A stretch of 64,000 nt of DNA from Liolophura sinensis (taxonomy: Eukaryota > Mollusca > Polyplacophora > Chitonida > Chitonidae). A program made the translations under genes and the position numbers. Below are positions 2,666-48,522 of the stretch, in pieces. Positions within the stretch are counted from its first letter, which is position 1, and every line of letters starts with the position of its first letter. The DNA is taken from assembly GCF_032854445.1 (NCBI RefSeq), contig NC_088304.1, positions 27,599,732 through 27,663,731 on the forward strand, read 5' to 3'. The notes beneath the pieces were generated by a model, which made no database searches, was not told the origin of the DNA, and saw only the letters and a list, made by a program, of their open reading frames with translations.

Positions 2666-2744
2666 ATGAAATTGGATAAAGGATTTGTTAATATACTGTT
2701 GGTGTTACCTGTTTATCTACTTCTGAAGATCGACACAGCGAAAG
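2666..2744 (+). CDS. Receptor gene exon 1: start codon and signal peptide
   Basis: The ATG in AAAACGATGA opens a 26-codon segment: a lysine-containing N-region (MKLDKG), a hydrophobic core (residues 7-20, FVNILLVLPVYLLL) and a small-residue site near TAK. This is a classic secretory signal peptide. The exon ends AAAG|GTAAGA in phase 1, and the split glycine codon is completed by the first two bases of exon 2. The frame upstream is closed. The matching phase and the signal-peptide character tie this exon to the domain exons 8.7 kb downstream, but no direct splice evidence is available. Confidence 0.75.
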
Positions 2745-5700
2745 GTAAGATTATATAATCTTCCTTGTATGATTTCTGGATTCTTTTAAATATCAAGATT
2801 GGCAAGAATTTATTGCATTAGCTGATACAAACGTTCAGGGCATTGAACGCATATGTAAAAAGTAATTTCATTGTTCAGACCCTTACCTCGTGGATTTTTG
2901 AAGATATATGTACTAATTTATCCAGTAACATCTCTGTTTAATGTACCCTTCAGCCGGCCTAGAAATCTCATGTAACCTGTCTTGCATAGATTTAAATATT
3001 TTGACACTGCAGGACTAGCTCAATACCAGTCTGAACAGCCATATAATAACGGTGAAGGCACAGGTATATTATCTCATGGAACTAGCAATTCCATATTTGG
3101 CAAGGCCGTTCTGTGACATTTGTCTTCAAACCGTATCTCAGCCAAGATGTAGAAATCTTCCAGCAGTAATATCTGACCAGGAGAAAATGGTAAGGACGGA
3201 TAGTTGAAGTATTGTGTGAAATATTCCTCAAGATGCATGTACGATTTTATTGAACAAGTTCAAAGGTCGGCTGAAAACTTTTTGTCAAACTTATGAATAC
3301 CTGCATGTAGTAAGCACTATTTTGTTGAAAAAGTACATCACAACTACAATACCCTGGTCCATACACTCAAAGTTGTTCAGTGTCAGCTATTGCCATATCA
3401 CAACTCCTTTGGTTTAACCCGGGTCACCTTACATTTGCCTGCATGTGTTTGTCGGTTATCTCTTCATTACATATCATCTATAAGAACATGTAGTATTTAT
3501 AGCTTTTCCTGCAGGTTTTCATATATGTTATTACAGATAAGATAAAATGCATCAGAGAATGTTGAATTATTTAGTATAAATGCAAAGCGAGGTTCTAAAA
3601 ACAACATCCGTTTTTTATAAGGCGCTTGGTGCTTTTGATAACTCACGAAATGTAGGGAAGCTTTCGCTCATGAAAGAAGCTTATTTTCTAGGGAGGGGGC
3701 AGGAGAACGTGTGGGGGTGGGACAGGATAAGGAGGTTAAATTAGGAGCTAATGTTTTGTATGAGTGAGCCCAGCAGTGGCTCCATTACATGAAGCAAAAG
3801 CTATAATGCAATACGTTGTTTTCAGTAAACACCTTGTCTACTGTTTGTTTCGGCGGAAGCTCACGTTCTTATACACAATCAGGTTAGCCTCAATAACCGC
3901 TACCAAGTCATCACTTACATGTGAACCTGTTAGAGTTACTAACCTGTCATCGCTAATACTTTTAGAGAAAAAACACAAGTGCTTTCTGGTACAGATTTCT
4001 TCTCTTCCTCATCACTCACTCTCTACTGCAGCTTCAGCACTCATCAGAAAATGCCTTCAACTCTTCACGCCACTACCCCCACCCCTCTCTGGCATTCTTC
4101 CCGCTGGGACAGTATATTAACCAGACGCCGTGTGTACTGATTACGTGATGAAATTGAGAGTTACCCAATGCTGATTATTTCAACGACGTCATAGCAGTTA
4201 CTAGAGTTAACCAGCTAGACTTCATTTACCTGTCTGTCTAAGCTTCACCTGGAATCGCCCCACACTTATTCAATATTCTCTACCAGCAAAGGGGGTGAAG
4301 ATGCATGGCGTGACGCAGAAAATAAACAAGTGCTGTTAACATCTTGTGATTTTATAAAAGACAGGACGTTTGTAATCTGGTTATGTAGCAACGCTTGCCT
4401 CAGTTAAAATGCGGAGAATATACCCATTCTCAGGCTGTTCGGAGAATGGATTTATAGCTCCGTGGAAATGCCCCAGATGTCTGAGTTACTGTCAGTTATA
4501 TTTAACACTTTTATAATGGTTTTGAAATGAAATATAGTATTACGTTTCGAGACTCAGATACTGAACGAGAGCAGTGTACTCACAGGCGCAATATGTAAGA
4601 ATAAAAACAGTTCTGACCTGCAAAGGTTGGAGCCGTTGGATACACCAAGTATGTTTAACTCACTTATTAACCCACCGATAGTACTCGCATCTGTTGCGAT
4701 AAGATACGCGTCCACATCTATATATTCTGTCTTCAGTCCACAGGAAGTTTCTTATACATAAAAAATCCATAATGTTGAAAAGTGCATGCTGCGCGTAGGC
4801 TCATTTTCTCAAAACCACGCAAATAATAGTTTGTAACATTCCTCATAAATCCAGTCCTCGTTTGGCGTTACAACCTAATAAACTTCTCCAAGAAAATGGT
4901 TTTTCAAAGCTTTGTCATGTTCACTCGTTCTCTTTATTTATCACCAGGTGCACACTTTGTTGTAACATATCTGTGAGACTCCATTCCATATTTTACATAG
5001 TTCAGTCTATGAGTCGCAGCGAGATTTTCGTATACCAGCCGTCAACTAATATGGACGTTCCAGGCCAATAACCATAAGACCATTTCCCAAAATGACGTAT
5101 AACACAAACCACCCAAGAACTAAGAATGTATGTAAAGTACGAAAATATAGGACGGAACCATGCAAAGAGAATCGCTCAACAGTTTCCAGTGATGCTAGAA
5201 AGACGCACTTTATGGTCAAGGCGACTGAGTGAAACCAGTAACCAAACCGTGTACCATGCTAGTATATAAGTATTGATTTCAATTGTTCGTACATCCATTG
5301 TGGCGATCTAATTTTCATCACGATGAATATACACACCCCGGCCCTAGTTAGTGGTAAAGCGTAATTTCACATATGACTCAAGAGAGTACTGTATATAAGT
5401 GAGAAAGTGCAAATCAGGAGGCCGTGAGAAAGAAAATAGACACTGTACAATATCAATCTCATGCGTAGTAATATGTACACTTATTTTCTGTGTACACTTC
5501 TTTGGTATATCCGCTTATTGTACATTGAACCGGAACCGGAAATAGATAATTCATTCAACACCTAATGAGGGGATTCAAAATACTACCATTATAATTGGAA
5601 CACTTGCAAAACCTGAATTGGGCCCTCAGGAAATGGTTGATGTTTTGATAAATCTTGTTTTCACTCAGCTAAACTCACATACATCCGGAAACCGCATAGT

Positions 5701-8700
5701 TACGAATCGGAAATGCCACAGTAGGTTTGTTCAGTGGACATTGAGGGACTATATCACATTAACCACAATGACAGGTGGTTATATGAGTGACAAACGAGCT
5801 ACCCCTGCTGCTAACGGGTTTATACGGGTATCTATACAATCCGCGATTCCTGGATAAAAATCGCACTCTCCATTAAACACTGACCGTGGTCTGCCTGCAT
5901 GCCAGAGGCACAATATTCTGTCTACACACAAATTATTTGATGAATGACGAACATGTGTGTTTTGTCAGACACTTTCATATGTTGGTATGTGGGTATCTTG
6001 TACAGCTATCCGTTGTGGATATATACCTAAATGTCCATATAGTCTTAATGCTACAGACCACGGTTCTTGATAGTTGGCAAATGGTCACACGTAACCGGTG
6101 AAGTACGGCCTCTTGTCAATTTACATCAGTTAGGATTTTATTCTAACTGTTCATGTAAATGCATAAATAAGAACAATTTACACGCCCCCTAGCACCATGG
6201 CTTAAGCAGCATTACGTAAATAAATGCATTGATGATAATGGCAATTTATTAGACGTCACTGGTCTAAAGTCACTCAAAATGCTGTGCTGTCATCACATTT
6301 AACATAAAATAATATAAAAGCCGGCACCAATGAAATAATGCTTAAGGTTTAAGGGCATAAACATAAGGCAAAGCCGTAAAATGCCAGGGCTGTATAAGTA
6401 TCGATCAGTATATTATTTGCAGTTATTTTACGACTTAAAAAATCTAATGTGTTTTTGACACTGACAAGTATAACTGAAATGCGAATTTTGAGAATTTGGA
6501 TTTCTGACCGGAAATATTCGCACTTGTGTCCTGATACCATTGAAATCAGTACAATAGTCAAATGTATATGGCGTCAACATGTGAATATGTAAGTGTGAAT
6601 ATGTAAGTGTGAATATATATGTGTGAACTCTACCGCTTGGTTATGGCAGGAGTTAGTTGTGAGGCGTTCGTCTTTGGTCGACGGGTGGTATATAAATGGA
6701 GGATTAGATCTCCCTGTACAACCGTGCACACTGTACAGTTTATAGGACTGTGACAACGATGGGAATGTAAATCATCAGTTAAGCAGGCGTTAATGGGTGA
6801 TGCGGGCAAAACCTTTTAGCAAGGGGTATGAAGACCGGATTGAAATGCAACGATCCGCTGCAGACACACCTTACAGCCTTAACTTGTAATCAGGTCCAGA
6901 TGATGGACGCTATGATATACATCGTCTGCGCCAGTCTTAGATCTCGTGAGATCCTGATATCCTATCAGTGCAGACATACGTTTATGATGATTAAATCGAC
7001 CTGTTCACGTTGAGATTAACACTCATGCAACCCGTCAACGTTTCACCCTTTTATTTATATATTTAAAGTTAACAAAAAAAGTTTTAATACGACAGAAGCC
7101 TTCTATAGTTTTCAGACAAGGTGATAACACCGTTTTACTGTTTTGCTTAAAATTAAGCCCTGAGGTAAATTGACCAACGGCTGTATTTAACCGGTTAGGT
7201 GTGACCATTTTTCCAGCTATCGCAATATACTCGCTGCTGTGCTTTTACTCTTTATTTTGTAGTATTTTATGATTGTTATTTATACTTACAATATATACTT
7301 ACAATTTTCCAGTACGGTGTCCTTCTTTTAAAATAATTTAAGCTGATAGGTAATATGGTACATATATACACTTAGATTCTATATTCGGATTGTAAATGGA
7401 TTTCATGACATTAAAGTAATCTAATTTGTGTATCCAGTAATCCATGCGATCATGTACCCAATGTATTATATACGTTCCACAAGGCAGAGATAAGACAGAG
7501 CTTCATTAATGAAACCAATCTTTTATCCACGTACATCCAACAATTCAAAGTGTCAGGGGTTAGTATGAACATTTCACTTACTTGATGGAGTAAACCAACG
7601 CCCTTCTGTATGAACCCGACAAATCCCCTGACTTAAAGCCGCATATAAAGCAGCAAGCGTTGGATTTGAACTTTATTTGTCAAAAGCCTGATTCTGCCTT
7701 TGATCATATGAACCAGCGAGTAGCAGCACAGTTTTAGAGTACATGGTGGGGATGTTGTTACCGTCATACTTGAGAGTTTTTCGCCTACACGACAGCGGCC
7801 TGGATATTATGGCTTTTGAGATGTTATACTCGCGGACAGTTTCATGTGTGACTTATGTCTCATTGGTGGAAGGTAAACGGTCTGGAATGAATTTTATGTA
7901 GGACTGTGCCACAGAACACAGTCGACAGCTTATTAATACCTAGACATCGAGAATGGTAGCTTGTAGGGGAATCTTGGAAAATCCTTGTTGGAGAAAAACA
8001 TGTGTCGTGTGAACAAGTGATTGCAGAGCAAACCCTCACCCGCTCGGCCTTGTCAAAGCTATACTAGTCGTATTACCGACACTTTTGTATGAAAGGCTAC
8101 GTGAAAAAGTTTCATGTTGAATAAGGTTTTGGTATCGTTCATTTGGCATAACTAGGTTTGCGGTAAGAACGATTCTACTTATAGTTTGTATGTTAACAGT
8201 TGCCACATATTCAATCAAAGCCAGTCGACATGCTGTCAAAGGGGTCTTCTATTTGTTTATGGTATCCCGAAAGTTTATGAAACCTTTAGATATCTCGACA
8301 GCTATATAAACCGAATTATCGGATATAAACCGGACGTATTTCTTGTTCGCGTATCTGTAAATGATCCTGAAATAAAGCCAAGGTTTATGATTAGTTGAGG
8401 AATAAGTCGGCGTATGTCTAGCTGTTCGCATCTATCTGTGAAATAACACCTGGATAATCCCGTGGGGCGGTTACATTTGACCCAAACATAATATACAACT
8501 TCTGTGGATGTGCCTGTTACGTCATGCAGGATGAAGGATGAAAGACTTTGGAATAATCGGAGTAAACTTCCACAACCAAACAAATACACTAGCACTCTGC
8601 GGAAAGTCACCAGTTCTCTTCCTGGGAAAACATTTATAAATAAACCCAACTGTGTCGAATGGAGAGTGCTTCTGGCTTCAAAGGCTGTAGACCAGAAGTG

Positions 8701-11700
8701 TGTGTCCAGATAAAAGCTCCGGATAAATATATAAAGCTGTTTCCAATCTGAGGATCCCGCTGTTCAATGAGCGCGTGCGTCAACTCCGCCATGGATGAAT
8801 CCAGTCCGCCATACGTCACGGCGGATATACCCGATACGATCAAGGGCGGTAAATCTTACTCATATTTCACCTCTCGTCAAAATCTGATCATCAACAGTCT
8901 ACCCCTGCGCGCCTCCCCTTTTTTTTTATCTTAACCTCTTACACCGACTGGCCAGTATGGTGATAATTGGGATGCGTCACGCAAGTCGTCCGATAGTACC
9001 GACAGAGACAGAAAGCTTTTTGAGATTAAACGCGTATAAATTAAACCCATTTGTCTGATAGATGCATGTATGTTTGTTTTGCGTTAGCCATATACGTATT
9101 TAAGAGGAATATCTCGTACAAATCTTAGGAGTGCCGTAGGACAGAATGGGTGGGTTCAGCAAAACAACTCTCTACGAGGATGATTTTACTGTTAAATGAA
9201 TCATCCTCAAAGTCAGTATTATACCACCAGCACATGGCAACTTTCTTGTAATATGTGTCGAGTTTCCCGACAGATACCTGCGGAAATTCCATGTTTATAT
9301 GGCACATCCAAGGGTAGTTTTAAGGAAGTGTTTTTGTTTGTTTTACATACATTGATCCTTTGCGCGGTCACACGACATGTATGCACAGCTGCAATTTGGA
9401 ACTTTCACTCTTTATATGAAGGCTGTTGTGACAAATTCCTACTTCACGAAAAGCTTGAATGGTGCTGGGCAAAACATACACCATGATACTTTATTTCACA
9501 CAGCTGTAGGCCCATACTACGGAGCTGTAAAAGTGAAATGGTGGAAATAAAAAAAAATTTATGAAGAAAGAAAAAAATGACGTGGTGCAAAAAAATTGGG
9601 GAAAGAGAAAATCTTTTTTCTAGCCCCTGAGTTATTTAGTCGTGGCCTCGACTAAATTGGCCAATCACAGGTCGTTTGCCATCAAACAGCCAGTATGACA
9701 GCCACTGATGAGCATCTGTCACTGATAACTACAACTTTTGACCAGGGCTTTATCATGAGATAAATAACTTGTGTTTTAAATGAAAACAACCATTATAATG
9801 GACATGATCGCCGACACAGGCCAATTCCAATCTGTTTAAAATGTTCTCAAATGCCACTCTGCAGTGCTTGTGCACTTCATGTACATGTACGACTTTGCTT
9901 GACCGTTACGACTTGGTCTGCGCAGAAACAGTGACGTGCTGAAAGAATAACGGAGTACACCGCTTTAAACCAACTTGGTTTAGGCGGGAAATGCATTTCC
10001 CTCTATCAACGATGCACCTTATTAAAAAAACACATTTGAAAGAGACAATATATGGACTAAATAAAAATAAAGTACAAAATACAGCGTGCAGCAACGCACT
10101 TATATAGCCTAATCGAGTTCTTTCAATCTCAGTTGTAATAGCGATATGTGAGAGATTATTCGAATACATGTACTTGATCCAGCCAGGGTGGAACGTAGGC
10201 AAGCTATATATACGTTAGGACCAAAGGCTTTAACTCTCTTTTTACCTACATGTCTGAGGACGGCTGTGGTAAGTTTTAAACTTATCGTATTATTTGGTTG
10301 AGTTTTTGCTTTTTTAATAATAATCCCAGACTGTTGGAGGTTACACCATGAATCTTGTTGGCGTTGAACATTTTGGGACTGAGAAAATATAATTTGCAAG
10401 TGGAAAAAGTTAATTTGTAAAAGTATAATGGCACTGACGATCAGGCTGTGGGCCCCTGTATATATAGATGAGATTATAGCGTAACCCTTAATTATGATTG
10501 GCCAATTATGTCGGGGCCCGACTTTCAAACTCTAGGCCCCGACTTGTAAACGCCCGACTGTTAAAGTCGAGGGTTAAAAAAAAATTTTTTTTCACCATCT
10601 TCTTTTTTTTTCTCTCTTCCAAAATTTTTATTTTCACCATGTTCTTTTTTTATGCTCTCTTCCAAAAAAATTTTTTTCAGTATGTTCTTTTTTTTTTCTC
10701 TCTTCCAAAAATGTTTATTTTCACCATGTTCTTTTTTATGCTCTCTTCCAAAAAAATTTTTTTCACTATGTTCTTTTTTTATGCTCTCTTCCAAAAATGT
10801 TTATTTTCACCATGTTCTTTTTTTATGCTCTCTTCCAAAAAAAATTTTTTCACTATGTTCTTTTTTTTTTCTCTCTTCCAAAAATTTTTGTCACCATGCC
10901 ACTTTTATGGATCCATGCCACACCGTATGACTCCACGGAAGAAATTTCACAATCTAACAGCGTGTAGTTCGAAAATGCAGATAACAATAAGGTCAAATGC
11001 TACCACATATAATGAGCGTTGATTTCATTTCCTGTATTAGAAAGTTGATCTCTTTTAAGAGAATGAATGGAACTTCAAGGATTCTTTCCTTGCATGGAAC
11101 CGTTACTCCTAGGAGGATGTATCGAACCTTCAATGTTCCCCTTCAAGGAAGATGTGTGGAACCTTCAGTGTTTCCATCCTAGCAACAGGTATGGGACTTT
11201 CAATGTGTCTCTCCTATCCTAGTAGGGTGTATGGAGCCTTCAAGGTTTTCCTCCTAGCAGAGTGTATGGAACATCCATGGTTTCCTCTCTAGCGGCATGT
11301 ATTGAACCTTTACCTTTTAGATTATAACAACATTGTATTTTAAGGCATAAATGATCAATTCAGTATTAAAATCCTGGCCAATCATACTCTTATTTCTGTA
11401 TTTTCATGTTGTTGTTTTTTTGCAGGTCTCAGCGGTAATTATGCCTGTGACGTGAATCTCTGTGACGACGATGCACCCCAACTTCTGTGTCAAGCCGGAA
11501 GTGTAATTCTCATACAGGAAGTAATGTGCAGAGATGGGACGAAAAACTGTGACGAAGTTGCTTTCCGGGAAGTGACGAGAATTTGTTCGGGAAGGCAGTA
11601 CTGTCAGCCGTCAGATCTGTGGTACATCCGGGGACAGTTCTGTCCGAACGGAGTGCAGAGCGATGATGACGTGAAGGCCATTTCATTGGTGTTCGTCAGT

Positions 11701-14700
11701 TACGTGTGTATCTCTGGTAAGTCATAAGGCATGGCGTAGGTTACACGAAAGCGCCATTTACACATAGCTGTCTTGACGACATAATGCATACAACGAAGTT
11801 TAAAACAGTACAGAGCGGCCAACAAACCAGAGCAGCGACCAGTGTGGAAGATGATGAAAGGTCACATATTACATGTATAACCACTGAATTCAGGCCTCTT
11901 GTCAGATGACCTCAATATGTTTTTTTTTTAATGTTCACACTTAAATAGTAGCAACTTAAATCATCCCTACAAATCATCCCTTTCTCAAATGTTGTATTGT
12001 TATCAAATTTAATAACCATTTACTTGAAAACAATGCACGAGAAATGCACTCGTGCAGAGGCCCTTTTCACAAATCCGTCCTGATGCTGCGTGAACCAACA
12101 TGTAACATGGTACTCTCAGTTCCTGTAATTCTGGTAGGCCTATTTATTTATTTGATTGATGTTTGCGCCGTACTCAAGAATATTTCTCTTATACGACGAG
12201 GACGACCAGCATTATGGTGGGAAGAAACCAGGCAAAGCCCGGTAAAAAAAAAAAAACCGCGCACATCCGCAGCTTGTTGGAAGAGCTTCCTAGGTCCAGA
12301 GGAAGCCAGCATGAGTTGGATTTGAACTCACAGCGACAACATTGGTGAGAGACTCCTGGGTCATTGCGCTGCGATGACATGCTAACCACCAGGTCCCCTC
12401 TTTTTTCGCTAAGGTAAGGCCTATAAGATTGCCATAGACTGATAGTTAGATGAATGTGTGAAACGGATCTTATTACAATTTTGGTGACCGAGTTGTGTGA
12501 CCGGATTCTCAAACCATTCGTATTGAGTTTTTTGTACGTACTACCATATTTATGTGACAAGGTAACACCGATAAGCCTTATCGGTATCATACACACCAAC
12601 ACAACGTAATGTGTAAAGTTCTTTGGACAAAGTCTGCTTAGTTTTGCGTTCATGTAACAACCATGACGTCGACTGGTTAGAGGTTGCCATGAAGCACGTA
12701 ACGACACAAGCGCAATACTAGCTTTCGTGAAAATATCACTAAGAAAGTGCAGAGCTCATAAAGCATCCTGGCTTATCATGAATGATCTGTTTTGACTTAT
12801 CCCAGGCCTGGCGATGGAAAGTAACTGTAGCCGACGAGGAGTGGCTGTCTCTTCGGACCAGAGATACGTATCCAGCCCCGGATATCCAGCACTCGTCATA
12901 GGCAGCTCAGTCTGCGCATGGCGAATACATCCACCAGCCGGATATGACGTAGATGTTTACGTTAGAGAATACCTGCACGTGGACAAATCAGATAAGCTGT
13001 TTGTAAGGATACGAGAGATGCTAAAAAATAAAGTTGGCAAGAAGCTGGAACGGACTTCTGAAAGGGGTCTAAAGTTCACGTTAAAAGGGGACATCGAGAT
13101 TTTAATGTTTACCCACGGGGCAGTAGGGGGCCATCGAGTCTGGATCGAGTACAGATGTGAGTTCACCTGATATACTTGCATTTCAGTGTATAAATGTTGG
13201 AACGAATGAATGAATGAAAGAATGAATAAATGAACATGGTTTTACGCAGCAGTATCAAGATTTGACACGCACTATAGTCATTGATAATACGACACTTTTG
13301 AAAAAGCATAAGGCAGTTAAAGCTTTTTAATAGTGTATTCTGTGGAGACCTGCTTCATTAATTTCTTTTTAGGTTATCAGAAGATATATAATTATACATT
13401 CAGTTCATTACCAAGAAAATTTCTTTGTGGATCTGTAGTTTCCGGATATCAACAAATGCAAAGCCATACTTAATGAATAGCAGATTTTATTAATACTTAC
13501 GTTTTGATTGTTCTATTGCACATGCGTATCTTGAACGTTTCAGTTGTGCGTGACACTACTTTGGATCACCTAAGACCTTTCAGCATGCCTAATCGGACAG
13601 ATTGTGGGACAGCCACTGGCAATTCCTCATTAAATACAGGTGAGTGTGCACACGCGCGATGACCTTGGCCCTTTTTCAGAGTTATCTCCCTGGTGCGCCA
13701 GGTGGCTATTAACCAATTACAAATAAAAACTGACGCTGCCTTAATTAGCTTTCAGCGTCGTTGGCGTATACACATGGCTATCAAAAACATTTCTGTGCGA
13801 GCAATTTGTTTTTTTTTAACTTTTCACTCTAAACCGTTGGCAAAATTCCACCAGTGCCCATCGGAATCTTTCAACATACTCTTTGATGTTTATAGTTACA
13901 TCACTGACAACGCGGGATAACAGAATACAGCGATTTCATAAGACTTCTGCAGAAACGTCGACGATGGCTGGCTTTTGGTCGACAGCTCCTTCAACCAACA
14001 CGTACGATGCAGAAGAGCAAGGTCAGTATGTTCAACAGTGTACATTTCTTTCTTCATTTTGTCTGTTCTTGTGCCAGTGGTGGTAGAACATCCCAGACAC
14101 TTACTGTTTCATTATTTCGGTGGCCTTGTGTTTAGAGGGTCCTACTCGAAGTCGGGAGACTCGGGATCAAACCCAGGTCGAGGTCCTACCATAGACGTTA
14201 AAAATGGCTCTTGTTGCCGCTGAGAGGTAAGGAAACCTGACCAAATGGCCGGGATTCACTGTAATGTGACTGGGTGGGGTGTCATGGCTGATCAGCATGG
14301 CGGCAGCACTTTAGCAGCATGGGCACAGTATATGTACACCCGCTTAATGACACCTAGTCGTCGTATGACTGAAAAACTGTTATGTATGACAATAAAACCT
14401 CATGTACATACCTACCCATTGGCATTTCGTTATTCTGGATATACCAGTGACTTTTACAGAAAACTGCATGTGCACATTCTGTGTTCATGCACATTCGACT
14501 GCCTTGGTCTTCGAATATATAGGTTTCGATAAAGTAGTTTTGCATGGATTTTAGTTTAACTGAGTTTTCTATTCGTGTTAACCACTTCTTCAGAAACATG
14601 TTCCTTGCTCGACAACAATTGGAAACAAATCCTAACCTATATAAAAATGTTGACTTTATCAACGCTTGAAGGAAATCTCGAAATAAACACTTTAGCCACA

Positions 14701-17700
14701 TGACAAATCCCAAGTAAAACAGTCCACAGAACATAGGACACCAGCACCCTCTGTGCTATTTTGTAGACTAAATTTTCTTCTGTGAAGGAGAAACGAGAAT
14801 TATATATTGAAAAGGTAAAATATATGCATTGTTAATTGGTCATGACACAAATATATCACTTTGTCACCCTTGAGACTTACACATGAATCCTTACCTGTGT
14901 ATTTTAGCGGTTGCTAAGTCGAACAAAGAGCTGTGCGCTCGGAAGCCTATGATCAATGAATAAAGCGTCACACGTCCAAATCCCCCTTCTGCTGGTTCGC
15001 CTGTACCCGAAAGTAGGGAGCTTTGTCGGGTAGCTGTAGGCCTAACACCGATAAGCTTAAACACCGTATCATATACGTAAAACGTTGCTATGTAAGGCAT
15101 AACACACCGGTACTGTAGTATATCTGAATGGAATTAAGTACTGTGTCCGCTTGCAAACGATTGGGAAACCAAAAATTGATTTCACAAATAATTACAAAAA
15201 AAATTACGCCGCTTCCACACTGGAATTATAAGGTGATTGTAACTTTTCGGAGTTATTATCGAAATCGGACGATAAATATAAATCGTACATAATGGTAATC
15301 TGTATTGATGCAAAACGTGTCAGTCGATGATTTTTTCTTGCCGTCATTTTCAAAAGAGTTGAACATCACAATGATTCAGCTGCTAACAACAACAGCATGT
15401 AGCATCGTTTTGAGACAATTAAGTTGCACATCTTTGCGAGCCGAGCCCAAAACTACGAACGAACAGTCTACATAAGGCTAGTATTTATATTTTATTGTGA
15501 TTTGTGGGCGATGCTAAATATTTAACACTAGTTCGACCCAATTATAATTTCTGGTTATAATTTACAACTAGCGTAGCTTACAATCCCTTCGAGAAGGAGG
15601 GTATCGATTGTAATGCTACGATCGTGATCATCTTAGGATCAAGAAACTGTCTCAGACAGAAGTTAGACTTAGTCTCTTTATCTTCAAAACCGTTTACCGC
15701 TCTAAAATTGTTTCTTATCTTAGAAACGTTTATTTTGATACTTAGAATTGGCCAAAAATTGAAATGAGACAACTGAAAATTATCGCTTAAGTTAAAAAAA
15801 AAATCTCAGTAATCACACCACAAGTTAAGATTATATCTGACTTAAGTCTGAGACTGCTTCGCGATCCCGGATCCTATATCCTCTTCTGTAATAACACGAC
15901 ATAAACCACAAGTTAAATGCTTTTTTATGTGTATGTCGTTAATTTCTTCTGACAGATGGAAACTCTAGTATTTGGAGAGCGGATATCCACATCGCTGATG
16001 GTAAAACGGACTTGAATGATACAATCGTACAGCGACAGTATGAAGCAGTTTCCGGTAAGTCACGTGACCAACCAATAACGCTGTACCATATATTTTTATT
16101 TTACATTCTGGTCTTATTTTAAAACCATGATCACATGACAGAGTCATGGTAGCCGCTACGAAAATTTTTTTACTTATTGCAAAGATAAAATGTGCAACTT
16201 GTAACAACGAGGCGCCTGGGGAGAATGCCCTCGTGAAGTATCTTACTAGATACTACAAGCTAACATTGGTATGGACTGTGTTAAGAGTTTCTTACTTTTC
16301 ATTATTGTGTGAAAGATGGGCGACAAATACAAGCGAATGAACTTAATAATTAATGATATTCAGCTGATTGCACTGTGTGAGGCAGCTAGAGTTACTTCCC
16401 CTTAACAAAAGACAATTTACTTGTTTCAAGCTTTTCACTAATCCATGTTATTATCAATTTTCTAGAATTTATTTTCGGTCTGGCTAGAGTCAAATGTGAA
16501 ATATATTTGACAATGCAATACTTTTTATCCGAAATCATTGGAAAGGTTTTTTCTGTTCAGACAGAAAGAAACAAATCTTTTGTAGAGTACATTTTTTTGG
16601 CTCTTGGCCACTTTCATCATTCACATATTTTTACTTTTGTTTCCAAAAAAAAACAGAATACTCATTTATATTTGATTTCGCAAACATATATCAAATACCA
16701 ATACATGCGTTACTCTCGCCTCCACTTTGCTCGTGGCGTTCGTGTTGAATACAATCGCCACGTTTGAAATACTCGTATAAACAGTATACCAACCAAATAC
16801 GCAACTGAGATATATACTTGGTTAATAACAACTTTCAAACGGAATCAATTCACAATCAATTAAAACGAAAAATGACCCATTTGTCAAGTTCAAAACATTC
16901 CTACAGTTTTCCAGAGCCATCAACAACTTTTGATTGCTTCTCCTGATAGGCTTCTGTCCTAATTGCTTATACTTTATACATTTTCTTCGATCTGTGTTGG
17001 TTTCTAGTGAACGTTGCTTTGGAATTTCTTTTCCATGTGTTGGTTGGCTTTATTCTGATGGTGATACTTGTAAACTTGAAGCATATCCCAGCAACGTTAG
17101 TTTACATTCACAATTGTCTTCATTTTCACCTACATGTTTGTGACAAATCCTTGTTCTAAAGTGCTGTGGATAGAACAGCCAGTTTACAGCTGGAGATTCA
17201 CGCTTTGCTTGTATACGTGATTTATTTGGTTGGTGTTTTACACTGTGCTTACATACGTTTACAATATTATTCATCATTTTAGCCGATTTAATTTTACCTT
17301 CAAAAAGTGCATTATGTGAAAAAAAAAATGTCTCTGCAAACTGCGTAAAAGTGTTTCACAAGCAGAGAATGTATGGATGACATCTCCTAATACAAAGGGA
17401 TATTATTCGCTTTTTTGCTTTAGAAATTAGATTTGATATTTATTTATTTATTTATTTGATTGATGTTTTACGCCGCACTCAGGAATATTTCACTAAAACG
17501 GCGGCAGCCAGCATTATGGTGAGAGGAAGCCCGGCACATTTGACGTCACACAAATGCGACGGCCAATCCTTCGTTTATTGACCAGGGACGCCTCTCATAG
17601 TTGGCATATACCAATGTTTGTAATATGTCACCTACATTGTATTCCATCAATAATTGATGCAAGGGAAATTTTGTTAATTGGTTTCCAAAAAGGGCTGTTT

Positions 17701-20700
17701 ATTTCCGGTTTCCGGTTTCCCCAACCTGTAAATCTGACCACCGGCATTTAAACACATTTCAATAAACATATACCGATATGCATTCTATCCCTAATAAACA
17801 ACGGCACACCAGCAAATAAAAAATGCATTTATTATTTTTATCTTTGAAGTTTGACTGTGTTTTGTTCACACGCAGACAAGTGCGCAGTCCTTACATATAC
17901 AGCTGATTACAATCAAGTACAAACAAATCTCGAACCTACAATGATCCATTTTTAGCAAGACAGCATTTAAGTAGTTTTGAATATTTTACATCATTATTTT
18001 TTATAGCTTTGCTCAGTAAAAGAAATGTTGCTTTGTGCAAGCAGTTGACCCCATTACATCAGCGGCCCAATTGTTACTCCCATATTGATGACGTGAGGGG
18101 ATGCTTTTCCAGCCTCGGATTAAATAATATCGTAACCAATACTATTTTTATTTTTTGCTTAAAGTCAGGTTACACTAAGTTCTAGTAACATGGTTCTTTG
18201 TGGTCATTTTTACGTTCTTGGCCAATTAGTTTCCCCAAGGCCAGATGCGCCTGTATATAGAAGACAAAGCACCGAGTTTCTCCGATTGAATATTGTGATG
18301 AAATGCGTTATAGAAGGGAGACAACCCTGGTGGTAATAACTGATTAGACCGCCAGAAGAAAACTCTCCCTCGTACCACTTTGCCATCAGTGATCATTTCA
18401 GGTGGAACTACGAAGTCGATTTTAGCCATTGGTTAAAAAACAAAAAAACAAGACACTCTAAATTAGCGCGGTATAATGCGGCAAAAATTATAATTCTTGC
18501 AAAGAATTATTGGCTAAAAACAACGAAAATGACATGTTTTTATTTTCAAAAGTTAATACTATGCGAAAGTTAATTTCACATAGTATTAAAGCATGTATTA
18601 CGTTTATGAAAGCAGTTTCGTTTGCATACGATTTGTTGCTTGTATAATGTGTAGCTGATTGGGAAGAACAACAGTTGTTAAAGATAAAAGTTGATAACTG
18701 CACTACATATTTTGCTATATGGATTCCGATTGGTGAAAATGAGATGGAGAAATGATAGGCTTCCATTTACTGAACCTCTTCGCGCTGTTTTATTTTTCAG
18801 ATCTGCCAATAATAATCGCCAGCTGTGTTGTCGGATTAGTGTTTACCGTTACGTTGATATGCATCGTAAAGAAATGCAAGTAAGTTGGGTTAAATATAAT
18901 TAAAGACGTACAGCATAGAATGTAAGATCAGGGCAGCGAGAAAAGTTCCCACCTAACCGGTGAAATACACCCTCTTGTCAATTCACCTCATTTAAGGTTT
19001 TATTTTAAATGTTCATGTAGATAATAAACGTTGACAAATTACACTCCCCCTATCACCATGGCTAAAGCAGAATTACGTAAGAAGAAAATGCAGTAATGTT
19101 AGTTGCAATTTATTACACGTCACTGGTCTAGAAATACTCAAAGGCCTGTGTTGTCATCACATTTAACATACAACCACATTAAAACAATGCGAATGGACCA
19201 GGCTGCGGGGAAGCTTAGTTCATCAGCAGAGTCCTGATTTATGCATAAATACACTATAATTAAAAACACTATAGGATTACAGCTTAACGTACAGTGAGAC
19301 CAGAGCAGCGAAAACAGTGTGATAGTTGGCAAATTGCCATATTAAAAACAAAAAATGACAGCATTAGGTTAAATCGAAAGACCGGTATATCATGAAATCA
19401 GGGAAATACGAGTCTTTAAGTTAAATATGGAGACTCCAAAATCGGCAGCATGGAGAGTGAAACTAGGGCTGACAAATGGTCACGTGTATACTGGTAAAAT
19501 CCGATCTATTTCATAACATTCATGAAATCATGTGTGAATCAGAAAGTTAAATTTAATAGGTAGATTCATTAGATCATGACAACAACAATTATTTTATGAT
19601 TCAGTTATGTTAAATATCGAAAGTACTTTCATAAAATCATGAAAACAACAGTTACTGGTAAATATCAAGAGAACATTCATGAAGTCATGAGCAAATTCTT
19701 ACTGGATGTCTGTATCAGTAATTGAAATATCACGAGTATTTTCATGATATCCTGAAAATCACAATACCTACTGTGTTAATCATTAAAATCATGAGCATGA
19801 TGTGTCAAATAGAAAGAGAGAAATCGTGAAAACAATGGCTTTTATGTGAACTTACTAGACATGATATTATGGTGAGCGGGGGCCTACGGGGCCGAGGTGG
19901 TTAGAGTGAAAGCGCAGCACAATGACTTCTGACCAATACGGTCAGTGTGGGTTGCCCACGCTGTCTTCCTCTCCGGTCGTACGTGGAATGGTCTCTCAGC
20001 AACTTCCGGATGGTCGTGAGTTTCCTCCCTGTTCGGTTTCCTCCCACCATATTGCTGGGTGCTATTCCATAGGTGAAATATTCTTGATAACGGCGTAAAA
20101 CACTAATCCGATAAATAAAAAATAAATAAATAAATAAATATTAGAGCATGCGCACGGTGTTGTACAAGCTCTGCTGTTACCGAATGAATCAAACCGTTGC
20201 AAAATTGCAGTAATGGAAATCTTGAGTGGATATAATCTGAGTGCATCTATCAAGCGGGGCCTCACCGACCCCTATTGGGATAATTGTGTATTCCCAGAAT
20301 TATGTTGTATCATCTGGGCGCACATTTAACATGAAAGGGTCTGTGTGAAATGGTTTTACTTGAGATTGCAATCATTACACCAAGCATAGCTTGAAACTAA
20401 AAAAAAAAGCAGAGGTGGATTTGTTTTTTCCAAACATCGCATATTTCTTTTAATAGAGATTTTCTTTTTTTTTAATGAATTATGTTGTTTTTGTCTAAGG
20501 TGTTTCTCAGTAATTACTACTTCATTCTCTCTTCGTTTGCAGAAGAAGAAAAAAGCCGTGTCAGCGCCCAGGCCCGGATACCGTCAGTGTTGCATCAGAG
20601 AGAGGCTTACTGGCGTGCACTCCAACACAGCGACGCTGTCATTTTGTCATAAACTCTGCCAACGTTGGCACCAGTGCAGATCCATCCGCGAGCACGGGAC

Positions 20701-20891
20701 ACAACGTAGTGCTGTCTGAAAATATTGATATGATGCAAGAACCATGTAATCCCGATAAAAGAGGCATCTCAGTCCTCGAGCGTCATTCATATCAACAGGA
20801 ATTGGATTTAAATCCGATCGACTTCACGAAATATATCATATCAAACCAACAAAATATGGCGGACAGTCAGTACAGCGAGCATGGCGTGTAG
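2666..20891 (+). CDS. SUEL-lectin/CUB single-pass membrane receptor-like protein, 8 coding exons
   Basis: Spliced model: 2666-2744, 11426-11716, 12806-13156, 13544-13639, 13953-14021, 15956-16054, 18801-18879, 20543-20891. These add to 1413 nt, or 470 codons plus a TAG. Every intron has AG and GT borders with GTAAG/GTGAG/GTCAG donors, and phases match throughout (1,1,1,1,1,1,2). Predicted order by residue: signal peptide 1-26, SUEL-type lectin domain about 32-122, CUB domain about 129-240, Ser/Thr-rich stalk 241-329, membrane span about 331-351, cytoplasmic tail to 470. SUEL domains bind sugars in many invertebrate lectins and adhesion GPCRs, and CUB domains are extracellular binding modules. 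The protein therefore probably sits in the plasma membrane and binds a glycan or protein ligand, but this is inferred. I recognise no named orthologue. The model was built by eye; an extra small cassette exon could be missing, especially in the 16055-18800 intron. Confidence 0.85.
5015..5096 (+). repeat. R2 interspersed repeat fragment
   Basis: Shares ATTTTCGTATACCAGCCGTC and a following ...AAGACCATTTCCCAAAATGA stretch with 28921-28996 (about 80% similar by eye). Family unknown. Confidence 0.5.
6055..6345 (+). repeat. R1 interspersed repeat, long copy
   Basis: Carries the R1 signature GGCAAATGGTCACACGTAAC, then a CGGCCTCTTGTCAATTTAC block, a TTCTAACTGTTCATGTAAAT block and a GTCATCACATTTAACATA block near the end. 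The same order is found at 18912-19215 and 48070-48420. No coding frame and no clear terminal repeats; class unknown. Confidence 0.8.
7130..7255 (-). repeat. R1 fragment, diverged
   Basis: The reverse complement shows the R1 blocks for the AACCGGTTAAATACAGCC region and the flanking GCAGCGAG/GATAGCTGG head. Old, partial copy. Confidence 0.5.
10570..10895 (+). repeat. Tandem array, 43-bp T-rich unit, about 7 copies
   Basis: CTCTCTTCC recurs at 10612, 10655, 10698, 10741, 10784, 10828 and 10871 (43, once 44, bases apart). Two subtypes mostly alternate, one with ATTTTCACCATG and one with TTTTTTCACTATG, so there is an 86-bp higher-order unit. Long poly-Phe and poly-Lys reading frames across it are artefacts. 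Confidence 0.92.
11080..11318 (+). repeat. Tandem array, 35-bp unit, degenerate, about 6-7 copies
   Basis: GTGTATGGAACCTTCAATG-like motifs start at 11117, 11152, 11187, 11227, 11262 and 11297, spaced 35 bases apart except for one 40-base step. The array ends about 110 bases before receptor exon 2. Confidence 0.85.
11426..11716 (+). CDS. Receptor gene exon 2: SUEL-type (rhamnose-binding-lectin-like) domain
   Basis: A pyrimidine tract (GTTGTTTTTTTGCAG) precedes the exon, which ends TCTG|GTAAGT, phase 1 at both ends. It encodes 97 residues with nine cysteines in SUEL-like order: a leading cysteine pair, LLCQAGSVILIQEVMC, a central NC, then VTRICSGRQYC, a late FC and a closing VSYVC. The pattern hydrophobic-x-C-x-x-G-x-I-x-I followed by V-x-x-x-C-x-G-x-x-C is the family hallmark. 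The sugar-contact motifs of classical rhamnose-binding lectins (YGR after the first strand, and DPC before the last) are absent: VMCRD and QFCPNG stand in their place. The fold is likely kept, while rhamnose or galactose binding is doubtful. A single copy of the domain occurs here, whereas soluble fish lectins often have two or three. Confidence 0.88.
11808..11990 (+). repeat. R1 fragment
   Basis: Shows the CCAGAGCAGCGACCAGTGTG head, an AGGCCTCTTGTCA block and an ATGTTCACACTTAAATAGTAGCAA block in R1 order, with small deletions. Confidence 0.6.
12140..12403 (-). mobile_element. SINE, near full length, minus orientation
   Basis: From left to right: the (AAATA)n-side tail as TATTTATTTATTTGATTGAT, the conserved core GCCGTACTCAAGAATATTTC, a CAGCATTATGGTGGGAAGAAA block, and the tRNA-like head with its B-box complement (TTGGATTTGAACTCACAG). 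Lies in the intron between receptor exons 2 and 3. Confidence 0.85.
12806..13156 (+). CDS. Receptor gene exon 3: CUB domain
   Basis: Acceptor TTATCCCAG, donor AGAT|GTGAGT, phase 1 at both ends, 117 residues. The segment begins with a cysteine (NCSRRG), runs into SSPGYP, the typical CUB turn, then VCAWRIHPPAGYDVDVYV, with the Cys-x-Trp-x-Ile pattern of the second CUB strand. It ends with LKFTLKGDIEILMFTH and a GGHRVWIEYR strand equivalent to the usual G-F-x-A-x-Y end. The length fits a CUB domain (about 110 residues). Only the first disulphide pair is visible; the second pair usual in CUB domains is missing, as in some two-cysteine CUBs. A lysine/arginine-rich stretch in the middle (about residues 195-210 of the protein) is unusual. 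Reading through the donor would give a Cys and then a stop codon 11 bases past the exon end. Confidence 0.88.
13544..13639 (+). CDS. Receptor gene exon 4: stalk segment with two N-glycosylation sites
   Basis: Acceptor AACGTTTCAG, donor ACAG|GTGAGT, phase 1 at both ends, 32 residues. The peptide is polar and low in hydrophobic residues and carries two N-glycosylation sequons (NRT and NSS) and several Ser/Thr, as expected for an extracellular linker. No domain is recognised. Perfect phase match with exons 3 and 5 and consensus borders support it. It follows the CUB exon after a 387-bp intron. Confidence 0.72.
13953..14021 (+). CDS. Receptor gene exon 5: short Ser/Thr-rich stalk segment
   Basis: Acceptor AGACTTCTGCAG, donor CAAG|GTCAGT, phase 1 at both ends, 23 residues rich in Thr/Ser/Ala (ETSTMAGFWSTAPSTNTYDA). 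It looks like an O-glycosylated mucin-type linker. The acceptor tract is weak and the donor is GTCAGT rather than GTAAGT, so the exon may be alternatively used or wrong. Leaving it out keeps the reading frame. Confidence 0.55.
14105..14350 (+). mobile_element. tRNA-derived SINE of a second family
   Basis: A tRNA-like head (GGTGGCCTTGTGTTTAGAGG as A-box region, GGGATCAAACCCAGG as B-box) is followed by a body (ATAGACGTTAAAAATGGCTC) unlike the main SINE. Boundaries are approximate. Confidence 0.55.
15956..16054 (+). CDS. Receptor gene exon 6: membrane-proximal stalk segment
   Basis: Acceptor AATTTCTTCTGACAG, donor TCCG|GTAAGT (a full consensus donor), phase 1 at both ends, 33 residues. It contains an NSS glycosylation sequon near its start and an acidic/polar composition (ADIHIADGKTDLNDT). 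No cysteines and no recognised domain. It directly precedes the membrane-span exon in the model, so it would form the juxtamembrane stalk. Confidence 0.72.
17437..17545 (-). mobile_element. SINE, 3' half only
   Basis: TTTATTTATTTATTTGATTG tail, TTTTACGCCGCACTCAGGAA core and CAGCATTATGGTGAGAGGAA block; head missing. Confidence 0.85.
17705..17775 (+). mobile_element. SINE fragment, diverged
   Basis: CGGTTTCCCCAACCTGTAAATC followed by a decayed core resembles the CGGTTTCCTCCACC-to-core region of other copies here. Confidence 0.4.
18801..18879 (+). CDS. Receptor gene exon 7: transmembrane segment
   Basis: A strong pyrimidine-rich acceptor (GCTGTTTTATTTTTCAG) opens the exon in phase 1, and it ends TGCAA|GTAAGT in phase 2. 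It encodes about 20 hydrophobic residues (LPIIIASCVVGLVFTVTLIC) followed at once by IVKKC, then continued by KRRKK from exon 8. This is a classic type I membrane span with a basic stop-transfer anchor on the cytoplasmic side. The glycine and small residues could allow helix packing. Confidence 0.85.
18912..19215 (+). repeat. R1 interspersed repeat, long copy
   Basis: TAACCGGTGAAATACACCCT, CTCTTGTCAATTCACCTC, TGTTCATGTAG and TTGTCATCACATTTAACATA blocks in the same order as at 6055-6345. Extra R1-head fragments follow at 19291-19345 and 19455-19503. Lies in the last receptor intron. Confidence 0.8.
19380..19845. repeat. Degenerate tandem repeat, about 45-65 bp spacing
   Basis: TTCATNAAATCATGANAACAAC-like motifs recur near 19514, 19566, 19628, 19675, 19739, 19783 and 19818 with AATATCGA-type spacers. 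The copies are old and of variable length. Confidence 0.6.
19880..20140 (+). mobile_element. SINE, full length
   Basis: Head GGGGCCGAGGTGGTTAGAGT, GGTCGTACGTGGAATGGTCT, core GTGAAATATTCTTGATAACG, and an (AATA)n tail ending near 20140. Lies in the last intron of the receptor gene. Confidence 0.88.
20543..20891 (+). CDS. Receptor gene exon 8: cytoplasmic tail and stop codon
   Basis: Acceptor CTTCGTTTGCAG, entered in phase 2; 348 nt of open frame run to TAG at 20889-20891. The segment starts with the basic KRRKK anchor and continues as a ~110-residue polar tail without a recognised domain. It has three tyrosines near the C-terminus, in the contexts HSYQQE, TKYIIS and SQYSEH, and a leucine pair after an acidic residue (SERGLL). 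None is a perfect ITIM, ITAM or YxxPhi motif, so a signalling or endocytic role is only possible. Two other frames also stay open over part of the exon (20537-20719 is one such shadow) but do not match the phase of exon 7. Confidence 0.82.
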
Positions 20892-21446
20892 CCCCAGGCT
20901 TTGGTCCAACACAAAGCTGATTGTCTTTGTAAAGTCTGATACAAGTTCATTGATCAGTTCTCATGTTCATCATCACACAGAATCACACGAAGTTAACGTT
21001 TTGTAAATATGTCCAGAAGCCGGCCAGCGCCATTGTTAGTACAACATTTTCAAAAGAATTGCTATTAAGAGAAACCGTCTTGCAAGGGCGAATCGAGACC
21101 AAGCTAAACTGACCTTGGTTCTTCGGACCATCTTGTTCACAAATCGTCTCTCCTAAAGGCATCGATGAATAGTAAACTGCGCAGCTTAGGCCTGAATCAC
21201 TGAAGGCATTGCGGAATATTTGAGGGAAATGTTTTGACCATGGCTCTGGCCGGTTTCCATAGATATGTCCTTTGAAGTAGACATAATATATTGTTTCATC
21301 GAGAGTATTTGCGAAAAAGTGAATAGGTGTATATATTTCTTTCTAACTAATATATTAGTTTTGTATATATTTTTCCATAATTTTTTTGTTTTATTCACAG
21401 GGTAGATGCGAACTAACAAATTCCATGGCTGTGTTTGAAAAATAAA
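20892..21446 (+). other. Probable 3' UTR of the receptor gene, poly(A) signal AATAAA at 21441
   Basis: The 550 bases after the stop codon hold no coding exon. The first canonical AATAAA is at 21441-21446, which would give a 3' UTR of roughly 570 bases. A full-length SINE begins about 110 bases further on. Placement of the transcript end is inferred. Confidence 0.4.
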
Positions 21447-21559: not shown

Positions 21560-21812
21560 GGGGCCTCCGTGGATCAGTTGGTTGGCGCGCTAGCCTAATG
21601 CCCAAGAGCCTCCTACCACTGCGGTCGCTGTGAGTGCAAGTCCAGCTGATGCTGGCTTTCTCTCCGGCCGTACGTGGGAAGGTCTGCCAGCGGATGATCG
21701 TGGGTTTCCCCCGGGGTGTGCCGGGTTTCCTCTTACCATAATGCTGGCCACTGTCCTATGAGTGAAATATGCGTGAGTACGGCGTAAAACAACAATGAAA
21801 TAAATAAATAAA
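21560..21812 (+). mobile_element. SINE, full length
   Basis: GGGGCCTCCGTGGATCAGTT head, GTGAGTGCAAGTCCAGC B-box, CCGGCCGTACGTGGGAAGG, TGAGTACGGCGTAAAACAAC core and AATAAATAAATAAA tail. It begins about 110 bases after the putative poly(A) signal of the receptor gene. Confidence 0.92.
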
Positions 21813-21952
21813 ACTAAAGCAAGTTTCCTGATGTTTTGGAAACAGTTAGATATATAGGTGTGTGTGTAGTCAGGTGTATCTTGAGGTGACGACGAATACC
21901 ATACAATTTTACTTCCAGAGTGGTGGCAAATCTACCCTCTTCTTTGCGCTCC

Positions 21953-21987: not shown

Positions 21988-22399
21988 GAAAACATATTAA
22001 TTTAGAAAATACATATCCGACAGACCCGTAACACTGTATCGAGAAATTAAGTTGAGTGACAATTGTATGTACATGGAGTATCTATCAGTGTATATTTAAT
22101 GAAATTTTACGCTTTAAAGGCATCGCGTGATGTATATTTTACTTTTGAGCTCTTCCAAAATACAGGATCGAACATAACAGTGTTGGTAACATCTCTAACA
22201 AAGCGGCATCTGGTAAATAGGAGAGAGGTGCACCTTCCATATGAAAGTCAGAGGTTAGTGGTCAGTTATGTCACAGAATCTCTGAAATGTACACCGAGTG
22301 ATGCAAGGCATGTTAAAACGAGTGTAAGAATGTAAAGTTAGCATTTCGTCGATATAAAACTAGCTCCATTTTATACTTGTAAACGGAAATTTGTAATTT

Positions 22400-22672
22400 T
22401 AAATTTATTTGCTTATTTGATCGGTGTTTTAACGCCGCATTCAAGAATATTTCACTTATACGACGGCAGCTAGCTTTATGGTGGGAGCAAACCGGGCAGA
22501 CCCCGGAGGAAACACACGACCATCCGAAAGTTGCTGACTTATCTTCTTCTTCGTTCTTTGAATTTTCGGGCCGGAGAGGAAGCCAGCATGAGCTGGACTT
22601 GAACTCACAGCCGACGCATTGTTGGGAGGATCTTGGGTCAATGCGCCGGGCTGATGTGCTATCTCCCTCGGA
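22400..22672 (-). mobile_element. SINE, near full length, minus orientation
   Basis: Tail and core (AACGCCGCATTCAAGAATAT), the GTGGGAGCAAACCGGGCAGA block and the head complement (GGACTTGAACTCACAGCCG). A CTTCTTCTTCG insertion lies in the middle. Confidence 0.88.
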
Positions 22673-22775
22673 CACGGAGACCATTATAGTTCAAAGGAAT
22701 TCAGTCAGAATACCACATTCTCAAAAGATATGTGATTTCGTCAATAAGCCGCTTAAGGTCTGTATTATTTCCTAC

Positions 22776-26479: not shown

Positions 26480-26715
26480 AGACAGTACGGAGAGTAAAGC
26501 CAGAGCAGCAACGATAGAGTGATAATTGGCAAATGGTCATGCGTATACAAGTAACCGGTGAATACGGGGGAGTTTACCTCAGTTCGGGTTTTGTTCCAAC
26601 TGTTCGTGTTAACGCTTAAATGGTAGCAAATTACACCTTCCCCACCACCAGAACCATGGCCTGAGCAGAATTAGTAAAAAATGCAACGATGTTATTTGCA
26701 GTTTATAAGGCCATT
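26480..26715 (+). repeat. R1 interspersed repeat, partial copy
   Basis: CCAGAGCAGCAACGATAGAG head, TTGGCAAATGGTCATGCG, GTAACCGGTGAATACGG and the later ACCATGGCCTGAGCAGAATT block. Confidence 0.75.
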
Positions 26716-28920: not shown

Positions 28921-28996
28921 AACAAACATTCGTATACCAGTCGTCAATAATGACCATCCAGCTCAACAATTGCAAGACCAATTCCCCAAAACGACG
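28921..28996 (+). repeat. R2 interspersed repeat fragment
   Basis: CATTCGTATACCAGTCGTCA and AAGACCAATTCCCCAAAACG match the 5015-5096 copy. A SINE abuts its right end. Confidence 0.5.
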
Positions 28997-29253
28997 TTTT
29001 TTGGTGTTTTACGCCGTACTTAAGAATATTTCACTTATACGACGGCGGCCACCATTATGGTGTGTGGAAACCGGACAGAGCCCGGGAGAACCCCACGACC
29101 ATCCGCAGGTTGCTGGGAGATCTTCCCACGTGCAGTCGGAGAGGAAGACAGCATGAGCTGGACTTGATCTCACAGCGATCCCTCATTGGTGAGAGGCTCC
29201 TGGGTCATTAGCGCTAGCGCACTGACCAACTGGCGCACTGGAGGCCCCCGGGG
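28997..29253 (-). mobile_element. SINE, full length, minus orientation
   Basis: GTTTTACGCCGTACTTAAGA core, GACCATCCGCAGGTTGCTGG, CTGGACTTGATCTCACAGCG B-box complement, and ACTGGAGGCCCCC head end. Confidence 0.92.
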
Positions 29254-31735: not shown

Positions 31736-32511
31736 AATTTTAAGGAGCATATATAGTTCACAGCAAGATAATTTTTTTCTGATCTGCCTGCAGGTTAAAC
31801 GTCCTTGAACTACCGCCACTGTCGTCCGGGTTTTATTTCCAGCTGGCAGACACCAGCCAGCTCATTAGAATGAGATAACTGGAGAGTAAACTGTGCTTAA
31901 CGAATCCTCGGATATATTGGATAGAGCAGACTGCGTTCAGTTCTGCTGGAACGGAAGTCGTATTAGTCTTACCAAAGGGAGGTGTCACTTTTTTTACTAG
32001 CCAATCTCGAGTTTTTAACACATGTGGCCGGAATTAAGTCCTACAAAACGAAGTTCCCTCTTCTGTTGATGAGCGAATGAACGGCAAGTGGAACAGTTGC
32101 TGACACCAACGATTTAAAAAAAGATCTCCGAAATAGATAAGGAAATAAGTTTTGAAAGATGAAACCGTGATCATGTGGATCGGTGAGGGAATGTATGTCT
32201 GTGCGACTTTAATTGACTTGTGTTTTGGGGGAAATATAATTAGAACGAAATACTACTTCTTGACTATGTATATAATCCTTGGGACGTTTGAAACTTACCT
32301 TTGAAGTTGGGAAAACACATTAGCATCGTATCATTGACAACTTTTTACACAATAATGTGGTAAGAGGTATACATATGTTTACAAGCGGGTCCTGCGAAAT
32401 AAGATGAATTTCTTGAAATGTTTTAAACTTGGTACTTGTTTAAAATCTCAGGTAATAAAATAGGATTTTAGTCCGGAATATTGATTACCAATATGAATTA
32501 TTTATTGACGT

Positions 32512-48420: not shown

Positions 48421-48522
48421 CCCAAGATTACAAAGTCTTTTAATTTTGGTTTGACGCGGCCTGAGATCAAACCCTGATATTCCGAATATTTCAGCCAGAC
48501 GTGAGAATCACAATCCTATAGC

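Follow-up and report, generated by a model that had tools for sequence, protein, structure and literature searches.

In the genome of the chiton Liolophura sinensis, we analysed a stretch of 64,000 nucleotides of contig NC_088304.1 (C10:27599732-27663731), referred to here as the window, together with the gene that it carries on its forward strand. This gene, termed gene A, consists of eight exons spanning positions 2666-20891 of the window, which splice in frame to a product of 470 residues. We propose that the locus encodes a genuine type I single-span receptor, that the window member belongs to an old family and that its head recognises protein, a combination that the sequence evidence makes reasonably probable. 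The genome was searched as 609 Mb in 632 contigs, and all whole-gene comparisons were made within it.

All eight exons of gene A lie on the + strand. Exon 1 (2666..2744) carries the start codon and a hydrophobic leader, a probable signal peptide (MKLDKGFVNILLVLPVYLLLKIDTAK); it was placed by its splice site, by hydropathy and by an upstream scan, and the signal peptide is predicted from hydropathy alone. Exon 2 (11426..11716) encodes a divergent SUEL-like domain with nine cysteines, supported by splice sites, sister genes, selection and a profile-profile match, and exon 3 (12806..13156) a CUB domain with one cysteine pair, supported by splice sites, Pfam, profile searches, sister genes and selection. 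The following exon 4 (13544..13639) encodes a linker that recurs in both sister genes and contains two N-glycosylation sequons and a single conserved cysteine (NRTDCG). Exon 5 (13953..14021) and exon 6 (15956..16054), the latter with two further sequons, encode stalk and were placed by splice sites and frame only. The membrane span (PIIIASCVVGLVFTVTLICIV) is predicted from hydropathy in exon 7 (18801..18879), which is entered in phase 1 and left in phase 2 like the span exons of the relatives. Exon 8 (20543..20891) encodes the cytoplasmic tail with a conserved PIDFTKYIIS motif and the stop codon, and was identified by its splice site and by the tail motif common to the sister genes.

The seven introns are all of the GT-AG type, with phases 1,1,1,1,1,1,2, and the joined exons contain no internal stop. 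Exon 1 starts at the first ATG in its frame following a stop, and nowhere else in the 11.4 kb before exon 2 is an ATG combined with a hydrophobic core and a GTRAG donor of phase 1. A scan of 25 kb upstream of both sister genes by the same criteria found no sequence of this type. Exon 1 is therefore supported at the gene A locus, but without homology support. By hydropathy, the product has a single membrane span at residues about 331-352, and the stop codon follows 116 residues past it. An AATAAA at 21441-21446, 550 bases past the stop codon, is a possible polyadenylation signal. The order of leader, SUEL-like domain, CUB domain, stalk, membrane span and tail that had been predicted originally is found in the spliced product. 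The 90-residue stalk contains four of the five N-glycosylation sequons of the protein, 24% serine plus threonine and three prolines. This composition is weak for the mucin-like stalk that had been predicted, and we dropped the term as a firm label for gene A; it does fit the stalk exons of some relatives. A phmmer search of the Protein Data Bank (PDB) with the whole protein gave nothing useful, the best matches being sodium-channel beta-2 (expectation value, E, 0.09) and neuropilin-2 (E 0.45).

Searching the genome with the gene A protein revealed three further exon-2 and three further exon-3 places on C10 outside the window, in sister genes that sit 5-60 kb past it. Gene B lies on the + strand of C10 from 27668473, its near-identical copy B' 12 kb beyond it, and gene C on the - strand from 27723465 down to about 27716790; B and C were both located by the protein search. 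Genes B and B' are 98.7% identical over 8.2 kb and 99.2% over 3.2 kb, flanking a 200-N gap, and may be one gene assembled twice (an unpurged haplotype) or a recent duplication. We left B' uncounted, which gives three genes on C10, namely A in the window, B and C. Two copies, about 99% identical, of the ~12 kb stretch that holds gene B lie in the region C10, about 27663170-27686910, which includes the last ~560 bases of the window.

The sister genes are 53-55% identical to gene A in exon 2 and 55-57% in exon 3. In all six comparisons (three gene pairs, two exons) synonymous divergence (dS) is saturated, with a proportion of synonymous differences (pS) of 0.77-0.89, and non-synonymous divergence (dN) is 0.32-0.41. 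Judged by these values, exons 2 and 3 are under purifying selection in A, B and C. Exons 2, 3 and 4 recur in the same order and phase in both sister genes, and the single cysteine of exon 4 is kept as PNRTDCG, PNKTECG and PNRTTCG across the C10 genes. From exon 2 to the tail, gene C has phases 1,1,1,1,1,2, as in gene A. The span exon of B' is likewise entered in phase 1 and left in phase 2, and one stalk exon of this copy is undefined. With GT-AG introns throughout, a product in frame and exons 2-4 recurring in the sister genes, the claim that the eight phase-consistent exons form one receptor gene holds.

Exon 3 is, by its profile matches, a CUB domain with one cysteine pair. Against the Pfam model PF00431, with its cut-off of 21.4 bits, genes A (19.5) and B (20.7) score below and gene C (29.9) above. 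The CUB domain predicted for gene A thus falls short of the cut-off in the gene itself, while the score of sister gene C and the profile matches to solved CUB domains speak for it. A profile of the three C10 exons 3 matched MASP-3 (E 1.6e-4), PCPE-1 (2.6e-4) and MASP-1 (3e-4) in the PDB, and ADGRG6 also below 1e-3; cubilin reached E=9.8e-5 only summed over four CUB domains, none of which passes singly. CDCP1 appeared as sub-threshold Pfam matches from the sister genes. In calcium-binding CUB domains (cbCUB) the calcium site consists of Glu, Asp and Asp. On visual reading, KLFVRI, QQYLRI and KLFVKI stand where the C-x-Y-D segment would be in the C10 genes, without an aspartate.

Distant relatives were sought on stretches of contigs C11 and C1, which were chosen from weak matches to the gene A protein and to exon 2 of gene C. 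The exon-2 profile found four more places on them: L043 (C11, E 8.6e-9), L044 (C11, E 4.3e-7), L045 (C11:2255466-2255737, a near-copy of L043, E 5e-5) and L046 (C1, E 4e-5). A CUB-like stretch follows downstream on the same strand at all four, so that the pairing is present in eight of eight places including A, B, B' and C. The single control, the Pfam-positive ordinary SUEL locus L005, has no such CUB on its strand in 9 kb downstream. The CUB of L043 exceeds the Pfam cut-off (21.8 vs 21.4 bits), and that of L046 was called from the pattern C-SP-P-C-W-G. Candidate membrane spans, each followed by a long open tail frame, lie downstream in L043, L044 and L046. Exon ends set by eye in L043 and L046 give phase 1 at the SUEL, CUB and linker exons and 1-2 at the span, where set; the linker acceptor of L043 and the tail acceptor of L046 were not set, and the linker donor of L046 is a poor GTTATT. 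The linker frames of L043 and L046 contain one cysteine each. Searching the genome in reverse from the L043 exon recovered C10 genes at E=2.2e-4, 1.9e-3 and 0.011, and from the L046 exon only itself and exon 2 of gene A (E 0.55). A possible further SUEL-like exon lies at C7:58414540-58414680 (37% over query residues 15-61, E 0.099).

Because the sister genes and the weaker relatives share the exon order, the pairing of SUEL-like and CUB domains is best read as that of a conserved receptor family, not as a chance join. The skeleton of this family, as reconstructed from these loci, is a SUEL-like exon, a CUB exon, a one-cysteine linker exon, a stalk, a span exon and a tail. A wrong gene model, in which exons of two genes were joined or a decayed copy was read as a gene, could be suspected from the 8.7 kb of intron 1, from the missing homology support of exons 5-6, from the failure to find exon 1 in the sister genes and from the broken state of some relatives. 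The exon order and phases recur in sister genes and relatives, however, no stop interrupts the joined exons, and exons 2 and 3 appear to be under purifying selection. We therefore consider a wrong model very improbable.

The relation of exon 2 to the SUEL fold was addressed by comparing profiles. With hhalign, six exon-2-like sequences matched nine known SUEL sequences with a probability of 95.9 and a score of 49.4; the nine comprised seven PDB domains and two from the same genome, namely the two-exon L003 piece and the Pfam-positive L005 domain. Leaving out L005, which bridges the two groups, the score was 44.0. Neither the 150 shuffles that kept the cysteine columns (top 21.9) nor the 150 full shuffles (top 18.8) reached 49.4. 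An earlier set (100 shuffles of each kind) included a cysteine-kept shuffle with a score of 131.6, which is a three-column edge artefact. The same six sequences scored 10.9 against the C10 CUB profile. A profile search of the PDB with exon 2 returned only a chance match, and searching the genome with the Pfam SUEL model PF02140 gave five matches at E<=1e-3, none of them on C10. The SUEL fold of latrophilin-1 has eight cysteines with bonds 1-3, 2-8, 4-7 and 5-6, as given in its structural description (PMC2430599). Three of its seven cysteine spacings (9, 6 and 13, between cysteines 1-2, 5-6 and 6-7) are exact in all three C10 exons, in support of a relation to SUEL. Exon 2 has nine cysteines with a shorter loop1 and with one cysteine at the Tyr63 position; on the latrophilin-1 register its first cysteine (residue 8 of exon 2) is the extra one.

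The original prediction inferred a receptor that recognises either glycans or proteins. In latrophilin-1, the side chains of Glu42, Tyr63 and Lys120 form hydrogen bonds with rhamnose, and in the experiments described for it sugar binding was strongly diminished or lost with each of the exchanges E42D, E42Q and K120R (PMC2430599). The equivalents of all three residues are substituted in all three C10 genes, which speaks against the glycan option. The Glu42 site is occupied by D/D/N in A/B/C, and the Lys120 site by S/S/S when counted back from the last cysteine; in the gapped hhalign alignment the Lys120 column holds an Asp in gene A. In gene B, the stretch between the last two cysteines is devoid of lysine, and hence no loop lysine is common to A, B and C. 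The Tyr63 site reads C/C/C by an ungapped count from the second cysteine and by hhalign, or M/M/M with MCR aligned to YGR. The DPC motif of loop2 is absent from exon 2 of the C10 genes. Because the equivalents of Glu42, Tyr63 and Lys120 are substituted, sugar binding by the known mode is unlikely.

These substitutions bear directly on the alternative that gene A encodes a sugar-binding pattern-recognition receptor, with a SUEL-like domain that binds microbial or cellular glycans of the galactose or rhamnose type and with a signalling tail. Such lectins are the best-known representatives of the domain family, one SUEL-type lectin of a bivalve reportedly agglutinates Gram-negative bacteria (PMC8878817), and clustered sister genes would suit an immune family. 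Set against these points are the loss of all three sugar ligands in A, B and C, the sensitivity of latrophilin-1 to exchanges at two of these sites, the missing loop lysine of gene B and the missing DPC motif. A sugar-binding mode of a new kind is conceivable; we hold this alternative to be improbable, yet worth keeping in mind. From the sequences, we infer that recognition of a protein by the SUEL-CUB head is a better explanation than sugar binding. The authors of the latrophilin-1 structure suggested that receptor SUEL domains may have evolved toward protein binding (PMC2430599).

The tails of the C10 genes have in common DTx(S/T), SE and (I/L)D(F/L)xKY(I/L)I(S/T)(D/N) blocks and a C-terminal E-x-x-V. 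Immunoreceptor tyrosine-based inhibitory or switch motifs (ITIM/ITSM) were considered for these tails and dropped, as Ser/Thr stands three residues past the tyrosine (+3). A PDZ ligand formed by the common terminal E-x-x-V was likewise dropped, with H/R/N at position -2. The distant tails are rich in tyrosine, with 12 in 240 residues in L043, 13 in 243 in L044 and 7 in 252 in L046. They contain YDEP, YEDP, YDNV, YVNK and YVNS, with Yxx(I/V) in L043 and L044 and proline runs in L043; such short motifs (YxN, YDEP and the like) were counted without a chance control. The YxN, YDEP/YEDP and Yxx(I/V) patterns of the distant members suggest SH2-type signalling in the wider family, and their tails resemble SH2-docking tails more plainly than those of the C10 genes do.

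Returning to the single-span receptor with a protein-recognising head, we propose the following mode of action. Together, the SUEL-like and CUB domains could make up a head that binds a protein, either on a surface or in the matrix, by analogy with latrophilin and EVA-1, for whose receptor SUEL domains the same has been suggested. In each of A, B and C the SUEL-like domain has an odd cysteine count and the linker a single cysteine; the spare ninth SUEL cysteine (residue 8 of exon 2) might be bonded to the latter, either inside one chain or across two. Binding, or clustering, would then be relayed by the conserved part of the tail around KY(I/L)I, a probable docking site. We further speculate, with much less confidence, that the genes represent an undescribed invertebrate cell-recognition family, in which a SUEL-like fold without sugar binding but with a ninth cysteine is paired with CUB, on the same exon skeleton in all copies observed, and is followed by tails that diverged from a short KYII motif to long SH2/SH3-docking types. 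If this were true, the family would be a duplicated receptor set for the recognition of self, partner or microbe.

Several observations weigh against the reading of the locus as such a receptor. The original prediction placed a SUEL domain in exon 2 and had itself named the lack of a SUEL hit as counter-evidence; at E up to 10, PF02140 matches exon 2 in none of the three C10 genes, and what stands of the claim is the profile-profile match. Among the distant relatives, PF02140 gave L043 an E of 0.58 and L044 one of 0.061, both below the curated cut-off, and did not match L046. The three C10 exons alone reached an hhalign score of 24.0 and a probability of 25 against the known SUEL sequences, next to best shuffles of 23.8 (full) and 22.4 (cysteine-kept; 150 each), and the SUEL relation thus leans on the distant relatives. 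Because exon 2 falls short of the Pfam cut-off and lacks the sugar site, we do not, on its sequence, file it as a SUEL lectin. The CUB support of the distant relatives is uneven as well, with E values from the C10 CUB profile of 0.038 in L043 and L045, 2.4 in L046 and 8.5 in L044. The CUB-like stretch of L046 has no Pfam or PDB match, and that of L044 (6567-6929) has a stop within its frame. The SUEL exon of L045 is split across two frames; L045 and the CUB-like stretch of L044 are broken family members. None of the patterns YxN, Y(D/E)xP and Yxx(I/L/V/M) occurs in the tails of the C10 genes. Finally, that the sugar ligands are lost is no proof that the ligand is a protein.

The rest of the window is characterised by repeats. 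Pieces of a first repeat family, about 110-290 bases long and 68-88% alike, are dispersed in both orientations at 12141-12384, 17431-17538, 19932-20130, 21560-21818, 22389-22682, 28993-29248, 32498-32610, 48522-48736, 57635-57890 and 58340-58581; we would guess that they resemble short interspersed nuclear elements (SINEs). A second dispersed family (71-86% alike) was found at 6068-6309, 18941-19173, 26520-26709, 43678-43780, 44267-44447, 48070-48384 and 49575-49647. Two short tandem arrays occupy 548-939 (unit of ~81 bases) and 10579-10898 (unit of ~85 bases), and the latter stops 0.5 kb ahead of exon 2. No RNA was found in the window with Rfam at gathering scores. No second gene was recognised among frames of at least 95 residues, which were inspected by eye and not scanned against Pfam.

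The original prediction could not name a receptor with this domain order, and this agrees with our survey: no single-span receptor combining SUEL and CUB was recognised among the matches listed from the open-licence full-text literature, and automatic annotations of such proteins may exist. The structural paper of 2008 names latrophilins, PKD1-like proteins and EVA-1 as metazoan membrane SUEL proteins (PMC2430599). A SUEL-CUB single-span family would add a further kind to these, and it offers a natural test of the role of a SUEL domain that has lost its sugar site. Protein binding by its members would support the view of receptor SUEL domains as protein-binding modules.

Among the known systems, EVA-1 (EVA1C, C21orf63) is also a short single-span receptor with SUEL outside and with substituted sugar-binding residues, as described in the same paper (PMC2430599). 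EVA-1 has two SUEL domains and no CUB, whereas gene A combines one SUEL-like domain with a ninth cysteine, a CUB domain and a stalk. A Pfam model of the EVA1/FAM176 type exists, and searching Pfam at E up to 10 gave no match of this type in the tail. EVA-1 is a co-receptor in Slit guidance, and gene A could still be pictured as a derivative of this type with a CUB domain substituted for the second SUEL domain. The single span and the shared loss of sugar residues would agree with this; the single SUEL-like domain, the CUB domain at the place of the second SUEL and the missing tail match do not, and we give this derivation very little credence.

Latrophilins (ADGRL; SUEL/RBL domain 2JX9) also carry a membrane-tethered SUEL domain and have equal cysteine spacings 1-2, 5-6 and 6-7, but they are seven-span adhesion G-protein-coupled receptors, whereas the gene A product has one span by hydropathy and has no YGR, no DPC in loop2 and no Lys120. 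PKD1-like proteins are large and multi-span, unlike the gene A product, and we know of no CUB pairing for their SUEL domains. They resemble it in being another membrane SUEL protein (PMC2430599). The membrane-associated multidomain SUEL proteins of bdelloid rotifers are, like gene A, lophotrochozoan membrane SUEL proteins but are described as large, with no domain list given in the source (PMC8878817). With CUB receptors and proteases such as cubilin, MASPs and neuropilins, gene A shares the CUB fold by profile, and its CUB domain has one cysteine pair. CDCP1 is likewise a single-span protein, with a tyrosine tail, and to our knowledge none of these CUB proteins, CDCP1 included, has a SUEL domain. 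In this company, the gene A product would act as a short receptor headed by a lectin fold.

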